Below the pieces are notes generated by a model. It had not been told where the DNA came from and ran no database searches. It saw only the letters and a program-made list of their open reading frames with translations. DNA of 64,000 bases, from positions 1 through 64,000 of the forward strand of contig VGKY01000004.1 in the NCBI GenBank assembly GCA_016866875.1, given 5' to 3'. The position numbers and the translations under genes were made by a program. This stretch comes from Candidatus Peribacteria bacterium. Its GTDB lineage: Bacteria; Patescibacteriota; Gracilibacteria; Peribacterales; Peribacteraceae. Positions 1-626 of this stretch are shown one piece after another (the first letter of the stretch is position 1; each line of letters begins with the position of its first letter).

Positions 1-195
1 ATCGTTTCCTTCGTCCGTCGTGCACCATCGGCGGAGATCCTGAATATTGAGCTCCGTGGGCATACCACGTGCATGCTGCATGCCTGTAATGGCTCGGAGC
101 AGTTCCATATCGACTCCTTCGGCCGTCGTGCACCATCGGCGGAGATCCTGAATATTGAGCTCCGTGGGCATACCACGTCCGTTCTGCATGCCTGT
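1..195 (-). repeat. 108-bp-period coding tandem repeat (1-87 aligned with 109-195)
   Basis: 15-70 and 123-178 are identical (56 bp). Over 87 aligned bp there are 6 mismatches, and the period equals 36 codons. Confidence 0.9.
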
Positions 196-504
196 GAACG
201 AAGCACGATCAGGAGATTGCGCAAACTCATCAAGAAATTCTACGCTCAATCCGCCAAAAGCAAGAATATGCTTATTACCTCTTAACGTGGCGGTCACGGC
301 TGCTGTTGTGCCGGAGCGGTAGAGAACTAAAAAAGCGCGAAAAGTAATATCGTCAATGACACTTTTTACTTGAGACTGTGCAAGGACCTCGAGCCTTTTT
401 AGAAAAGGCTCAAAACTCGCTCTTATTTTGATTTGGTTCAAATAGAATGGATCTTGCAATTTTTCGCGGAGACGATGAATCGAATGACTTGCATCTGGAG
501 TCAT
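1..504 (-). CDS. Partial 36-aa tandem-repeat protein; runs off the window start. Reads MTPDASHSIHRLREKLQDPFYLNQIKIRASFEPFLKRLEVLAQ...FTGMQNGRGMPTELNIQDLRRWCTTAEGVDMELLRAITGMQHARGMPTELNIQDLRRWCTTDEGND...
   Basis: Hand translation of the minus strand from ATG at 504-502 gives 168 open codons to base 1. It is absent from the ORF track because no stop lies in the window. Near-consensus promoter upstream (TTGACA 539-534, 17 nt, TAATAT 516-511, 6 nt, ATG). Confidence 0.75.
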   Translation of the reverse strand, partial: MTPDASHSIHRLREKLQDPFYLNQIKIRASFEPFLKRLEVLAQSQVKSVIDDITFRAFLVLYRSGTTAAVTATLRGNKHILAFGGLSVEFLDEFAQSPDRASFTGMQNGRGMPTELNIQDLRRWCTTAEGVDMELLRAITGMQHARGMPTELNIQDLRRWCTTDEGND

Positions 505-510
505 AATACT

Positions 511-539
511 ATATTAAAATACTTATTTATTACTGTCAA
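511..539 (-). promoter_or_regulatory. Sigma-70 promoter of the repeat-protein gene
   Basis: TTGACA-N17-TAATAT on the minus strand, with the -10 box 6 nt from the ATG. Confidence 0.7.
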
Positions 540-540
540 T

Positions 541-626
541 TGGTGGGCCGGGAGGGACTCGAACCCCCGAAGGCGTAAGCCACCTGATTTACAGTCAGGC
601 GCGTTTGACCACTTCGCTACCGACCC
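541..626 (-). tRNA. tRNA-Tyr (GTA), long variable arm, encoded CCA
   Basis: Acceptor GGGTCGG/CCGGCCC, anticodon stem CTGACTGTAAATCAG, T arm GGGGGTTCGAGTCCC, 3' ACCA. Confidence 0.95.

Follow-up and report, generated by a model that had tools for sequence, protein, structure and literature searches.

What does a gene encode whose product is built from tandem repeats and whose sequence stops at the end of a contig? The question is raised by the first 64 kb of contig C4 (VGKY01000004.1; 64,000 nucleotides, hereafter the window) of a Candidatus Peribacteria bacterium, represented by a metagenome-assembled genome (MAG) of 1.12 Mb that is 98% complete and comprises 36 contigs. The window begins with the 5' part of a repeat-protein gene (1..504, minus strand), which runs off the contig end. 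Judged from sequence comparison and structure prediction, this gene probably encodes a TALE-like modular protein that would bind nucleic acid, most likely double-stranded DNA, with one specificity residue per repeat.

As the original prediction stated, an open frame extends on the minus strand from the ATG at 504 to base 1; it comprises 168 codons. A segment of 102 residues, estimated earlier at about 100, precedes the repeat array and has a net charge of +2 and an isoelectric point of 9.2. It includes a basic N-terminal domain, residues 1–66 (307..504, minus strand), which was aligned with its counterparts in three other genomes (G024, G029, and G095), and a putative degenerate repeat, designated repeat 0 (AAVTATLRGNKHILAFGGLSVEFLDEFAQSPDRAS; 199..303, minus strand). 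Repeat 0 lies directly before the first canonical unit, is assigned from its position and pattern, and aligns with PVTSMY../SPITAMY.. of the homologs. Repeat unit 1 (91..198, minus strand) contains 36 residues and reads FTGMQ-N-GRGMPTELNIQDLRRWCTTAEGVDMELLRA. Unit 2 (1..90, minus strand), ITGMQ-H-ARGMPTELNIQDLRRWCTTDEGN., is cut by the contig end, so that about 1.8 copies of the 36-residue unit are present inside the window. The variable residue following TGMQ, termed X, is Asn in unit 1 (codon AAC, 181..183, minus strand) and His in unit 2 (codon CAT, 73..75, minus strand). At an offset of 108 bp, positions 1–92 and 109–200 are identical at 83 of 92 bases; the best match among 20,000 random pairs of 92-mers from the window has 43 bases. 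The predicted repeat is thus real, but its proposed start falls in the middle of a unit, the natural start being [SA]-[IF]-TGMQ.

Base 1 of the window is the contig end (C4:1), and the truncation is therefore an assembly break within the array. The only other copies of the repeat in the genome are located at the right end of contig C2. There, in the same frame on the minus strand, three further units are followed by ...NIQDLRHRRCLA-stop. The array had been suspected to extend past the window, and a stop or frameshift at the edge had been named as evidence to the contrary; the continuation at the end of C2 is in frame and runs to a natural stop. Counted over C4 and C2, the array has at least five units, a number that the original prediction had left to an extension of the contig. 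The X residues of these units read N,H,..,N,N,N. The period on C2 is 120 bp (40 residues) owing to a 12-bp insertion, the start of which is already present in unit 2 of the window (EGN.). The predicted period of exactly 108 bp holds for the single spacing in the window and fails on C2. Three relatives (G056, G037, and G073) yielded no repeat gene in the profile and tblastn searches for the family; in them, homologs of genes from the C2 side are located no more than a few kb away from the tRNA-Tyr and the MacB-like pair that belong to the C4 side. C2 and C4 are therefore very probably neighbors in the genome, as gene order suggests, and the gene very probably follows C4:504-1, an unassembled stretch, and then C2:108234-107848.

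Homologs of the gene are distributed patchily among Peregrinibacteria, Absconditabacteria, Uhrbacteria, Magasanikbacteria, and a few other MAGs. Two relatives within the family of the source genome carry members, that of G024 (45% identical) and that of G029. Members are also present in G095 (Absconditabacterales) and G437. A Candidatus Uhrbacteria genome encodes two paralogs (L039 and L040), a Candidatus Magasanikbacteria genome one member (L042), and a further MAG one (L041); a MAG labeled Deltaproteobacteria holds broken copies (L037, G719). The family is rare at the sensitivity used, with 4 of 353 genomes of the class and 8 loci in 85,462 species genomes. Low-scoring matches in G529 and G516 proved to be unrelated proteins. 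The N-terminal domains of the Peregrinibacteria type and the Uhrbacteria type are homologous (hhalign, E 1.3e-6).

The family architecture is sequentially composed of a basic N-terminal domain and units of 32–40 residues. In register, each unit consists of the motif [SA][IVF]TGMQ-X-G-[LR]-G-[MV]-P, a helix of about 13 residues, and a linker, and across the arrays the units measure 96, 108, 111, 114, or 120 bp. N-terminal to the array, every homolog for which the comparison was made is basic, and the arrays are mostly near neutral. By alignment, the homologs contain a degenerate repeat 0 before the array and a terminal half-unit after it. In the complete proteins, too little sequence follows the last half-unit to accommodate an activation domain. 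The G095 homolog (L017:1429-1956) is readable only with TGA as Gly, and the Gly after X in its unit 2 is encoded by TGA. In the G024 homolog (L008:1477-2127), the third unit is a 14-residue remnant (ITGMQNGRGELLRS), which is due to deletion or assembly collapse. Contigs end within arrays in five genomes (G000, the source genome, C2/C4; G095 C43; G437 C3/C10; G719 C138; G723 C13). Since the arrays break short-read assemblies, such genes are under-counted.

A divergent cousin is located at a contig start (L063:3-1037, G723:C13). Its 34-residue units read SISSIF-[K/N/S]-GQGIP...EIPFR; their variable residue occupies the same position as in the family, and the contig breaks in the array. Unlike the family, it has SSIF in place of TGMQ and possesses an extra C-terminal domain of about 250 residues. 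This domain has no Pfam or NCBIfam match; a sigma-factor-like character, suspected by eye, is unsupported by these databases.

X, encoded by codon 6 of the unit, is a single hypervariable residue in an otherwise conserved repeat. Seven arrays were examined, and the site was picked on inspection of the first of them. The five 96-bp units of G437 differ from one another at codon 6 alone (CAT, GCC, AAT): all three of its sites vary, compared with 0 of 93 elsewhere. The varying sites in and outside codon 6 number 3/3 versus 2/72 in G095, 2/3 versus 2/105 in G024, 2/3 versus 4/69 in G719, 2/3 versus 4/57 in the source genome, and 3/3 versus 29/93 in L040. The excess of codon 6 among variable sites gives p values of 7e-6 to 0.31 for individual arrays and 8e-11 when pooled, for a site chosen post hoc; it is not significant in L039 alone. 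When units of the same protein are compared in pairs, X differs in 80% of cases, the highest value among the first 24 positions. The second helix contains variable positions too, which differ in up to 68% of unit pairs, partly due to the inclusion of diverged terminal half-units. X is N in 15 units, H in 9, A in 4, S in 3, V in 3, M in 2, T in 2, and Y in 1, and the residue after it is almost always G. The paralogs L039 and L040 share 87% identity in their N-termini and contain arrays of 3 and 9 units, whose X residues read T,N,V and H,N,N,N,S,V,M,T,V, respectively. Neither the single variable loop residue nor any function for the protein featured in the original prediction.

Several other frames of the C2 array are open on both strands (L006:3849-4235), a trap for gene callers, and openness is therefore weak evidence of coding. 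The homologs are conserved in the proposed frame and contain stops in their other frames. For the N-terminal domain, the nonsynonymous and synonymous divergences (dN/dS) are 0.063/0.384 between the Uhrbacteria paralogs and 0.174/1.19 between G024 and G029. The domain is under purifying selection, with a dN/dS of about 0.15–0.16, and conservation of the homologs at this ratio settles the coding frame. The same ratio speaks against a neutral minisatellite in a dispensable gene, in which slippage expands and contracts the repeats and the differences at X arise by chance. The near-perfect DNA repeats, the variable unit lengths, the truncated unit in G024, and the patchy distribution are what a minisatellite would produce. 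However, the same codon is variable in unrelated arrays, all three of its bases are changed (CAT/GCC) with no other base differing, and the family is retained across classes of the tiny, uncultured bacteria of the Candidate Phyla Radiation (CPR) and across a change of genetic code. We regard a neutral origin as highly improbable.

No convincing match to the repeat protein was found in Pfam, NCBIfam, PHROGs, or PDB sequences. A clear match to a known repeat family had been named as the other outcome at odds with an undescribed repeat protein; no curated family matches, and that proposal is supported. Weak Pfam matches to AAA_lid_7, DIL, ZNF512, and DUF6216 are attributed to repeat inflation or chance, and those to ZNF512 and DUF6216 exceed the cut-off in the 9-unit protein by the summation of tiny stretches, each of them below threshold. 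Pfam matches to PORR are similarly placed in L040 (E 1.8e-5), L063 (E 0.002), L042 (E 0.025), and L039 (E 0.16). They pass the cut-off narrowly in one protein only and are kept as a weak lead. A viral or mobile origin was rejected: no relative was found in IMG/VR, phages, or plasmids, and a viral fold library gave nothing. The family is not mentioned, in the passages and under the terms searched, in the literature on TALE-like screens (PMC5472282), newly discovered DNA-binding repeat proteins (PMC11417379), Bats (PMC4066763), and the TAL-like repeats of Mycoplasma hominis (PMC6813540).

The TALE-like hypothesis was set down before any model or fold search. An AlphaFold model of the whole 419-residue, 9-unit L040 protein (L040:5617-6876) is poor, with a predicted local distance difference test score (pLDDT) of 57. 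The three top Foldseek matches of this model are all TALEs, 4hpz (E 2.3e-3), 3ugm (E 4.2e-3), and 9jo8 (E 2.6e-2), each with a probability of 1.00. A trimmed model, consisting of repeat 0 and five units and built with 13 sequences, has a pLDDT of 75.5 and a predicted template modeling score of 0.64. Each unit in it forms two helices, in agreement with the two helices and loop proposed earlier. In every unit, X falls between the two helices, at most four residues beyond the end of helix 1. The protein is thus predicted to be a helix-loop-helix solenoid with X in the loop. The trimmed model matches the TALE structures 4hpz (probability 0.98, query-based template modeling score (TMq) 0.55), 3ugm (0.98, 0.59), and 9jo8 (0.89, 0.57), as well as BurrH (4cj9; 0.44, 0.53). 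It also matches mTERF3 (probability 0.92) and mTERF4 (0.94), with TMq values of 0.43–0.56 for mTERFs. The fold evidence supports a two-helix solenoid of the nucleic-acid-binding kind more firmly than a TALE specifically.

A first alternative is a helical-repeat protein that binds RNA, or nucleic acids in general, in the manner of mTERF, PPR, or PORR (plant organelle RNA recognition) proteins, with X reading RNA bases or only tuning affinity. For the trimmed model, the best fold matches to natural proteins include mTERF3 and mTERF4. The similarly placed PORR matches in four proteins point the same way, and one variable residue per unit also suits readers that recognize one RNA nucleotide per repeat. 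PPR units vary at two separated positions. Placement of a variable residue in the interhelical loop is the arrangement found in TALEs. The PORR scores are partly inflated by the repeats and passed the cut-off once only. No mTERF Pfam match was obtained, and the modeled units have two helices, whereas mTERF units have three, with conserved Pro and Leu heptads. mTERF motifs are described as three-helix and are not tandem near-identical copies (PMC11417379). On balance, an RNA reader or general binder of this kind is unlikely.

A second alternative is a protein-binding α-solenoid resembling TPR, HEAT, or ankyrin arrays, with X as one contact residue for a partner protein. Designed helical-repeat proteins are among the Foldseek matches, and members with two units make easier sense as protein binders. 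The lifestyle presumed for CPR bacteria, on host cells, also suits such a role. Protein-binding repeats, however, usually vary at several surface positions per unit, and one array described here is identical in DNA except for one codon. TPR, ankyrin, and HEAT models are present in Pfam, and none matched. We consider a protein-binding solenoid distinctly unlikely.

TALEs and TALE-like proteins (Xanthomonas TALEs, RipTALs, Bat/BurrH, MOrTLs, and STARs) share with the family near-identical tandem two-helix units, of about 33–35 residues compared with 32–40 here. Both have variability in the interhelical loop, a Gly-rich loop, a degenerate repeat before the array, and a basic N-terminal region, and TALE and BurrH structures are among the best fold matches of this protein. 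The family differs in having one variable residue, followed by a conserved G-[LR]-G-[MV]-P, instead of a di-residue. It also lacks TALE matches in Pfam and PDB sequences and room for an activation domain, and its hosts are CPR bacteria. The most similar layout, compared by description only, is that of the TAL-like repeats of MhoF and MhoH in M. hominis (PMC6813540). These are 32-residue two-helix repeats from a small host-dependent bacterium, and their putative pairs KG, NG, HG, and QG consist of a variable residue and then Gly, as in the present family. Like the family, MhoF and MhoH are described as having putative DNA binding and no effector features. In contrast, their genes are carried by an integrative conjugative element, and their repeats are highly polymorphic beyond the variable pair, whereas the repeats here are near identical. 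mTERFs and pTERFs are likewise nucleic-acid-binding α-solenoids, and pTERFs, also compared by description only, are tandem-repeat proteins of uncultured bacteria; the units of both contain three helices, versus two in the present model (PMC11417379).

For the favored TALE-like reader of nucleic acid, we infer DNA binding, a one-residue-per-base code, and a biological role as follows. The superhelix would be initiated by the basic N-terminal domain, which terminates in repeat 0 and would also confer general affinity; in TALEs, cryptic repeats before the array are reported to matter for affinity (PMC4066763). The helix-loop-helix units of 32–40 residues would stack into an α-solenoid that wraps nucleic acid. 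The loop X-G-(L/R)-G would face the nucleic acid, and the X of each unit would read one base or base pair. A change of X would alter the sequence that is read, and duplication or deletion of a unit would alter its length. A TALE-like protein of nine repeats is reported to bind DNA with a nanomolar Kd (PMC11417379). Because no other domain follows the last half-repeat, the protein would act by binding alone, as a repressor, roadblock, or competitor, and most simply within the producing cell.

Several observations weigh against this assignment. The repeats yielded no sequence match to Pfam TAL_effector or PDB TALE chains at E ≤ 10, and the family cannot be filed as TALE by sequence. No Foldseek match of either model reached E ≤ 1e-3. 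The top match of the trimmed model is a designed nanocage (8v2d), designed toroids also score, and mTERFs score about level with TALEs. Base reading calls for a repertoire able to tell four bases apart; N and H account for most X residues, and none of those observed is acidic. Positions in helix 2 also differ between the units of L040. If X corresponds to TALE position 12 and the next Gly to position 13, the known TALE code cannot apply unchanged. No gene neighbor is conserved among the loci that would hint at a role. The main difficulty for a TALE-like model is the members L041, L042, and G029 with only about two units, which are few for reading a sequence. These may be collapsed short-read assemblies, or may bind chiefly via the N-terminal domain.

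The surroundings of the gene contain a promoter-like site, TTGACA-17-TAATAT (511..539, minus strand), just upstream of the ATG at 504. One such site is expected by chance in that stretch; if used, it would yield an almost leaderless mRNA. The repeat gene starts 37 bp downstream of the 3' end of a tRNA-Tyr gene (541..626, minus strand), whose position next to the MacB-like pair is conserved in relatives. The variable segment beside this tRNA gene holds the repeat gene and genes for a 324-residue protein, an aquaporin-like channel, and a TPR protein, as named by eye. Relatives differ in the segment that separates tRNA-Tyr from the holA-like region, a pattern resembling that of an integration hot spot. 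Mobile-element genes were not observed near the repeat gene. A DUF4143-like AAA ATPase, also recognized by eye, lies beside the array gene in two unrelated genomes (L031:646-1680 and L052:70-1323), probably by chance, as such ATPases are common.

More tentatively, these may be programmable DNA-binding proteins of a hitherto undescribed family native to CPR bacteria, in which one loop residue per repeat of 32–40 residues specifies one base pair by a non-TALE code, and which arose independently of TALE-like proteins or split from them very early; we hold this to be possible rather than probable. Modular DNA readers with one repeat per base are few, and most come from bacteria that deliver them into eukaryotes. 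If the proposal is true, the family would offer a compact scaffold, in which a unit has 32 residues and a single one need be changed, and would make the origin of TALE-like repeats testable. It would also raise the question of what use such proteins are to the reduced-genome CPR bacteria themselves.
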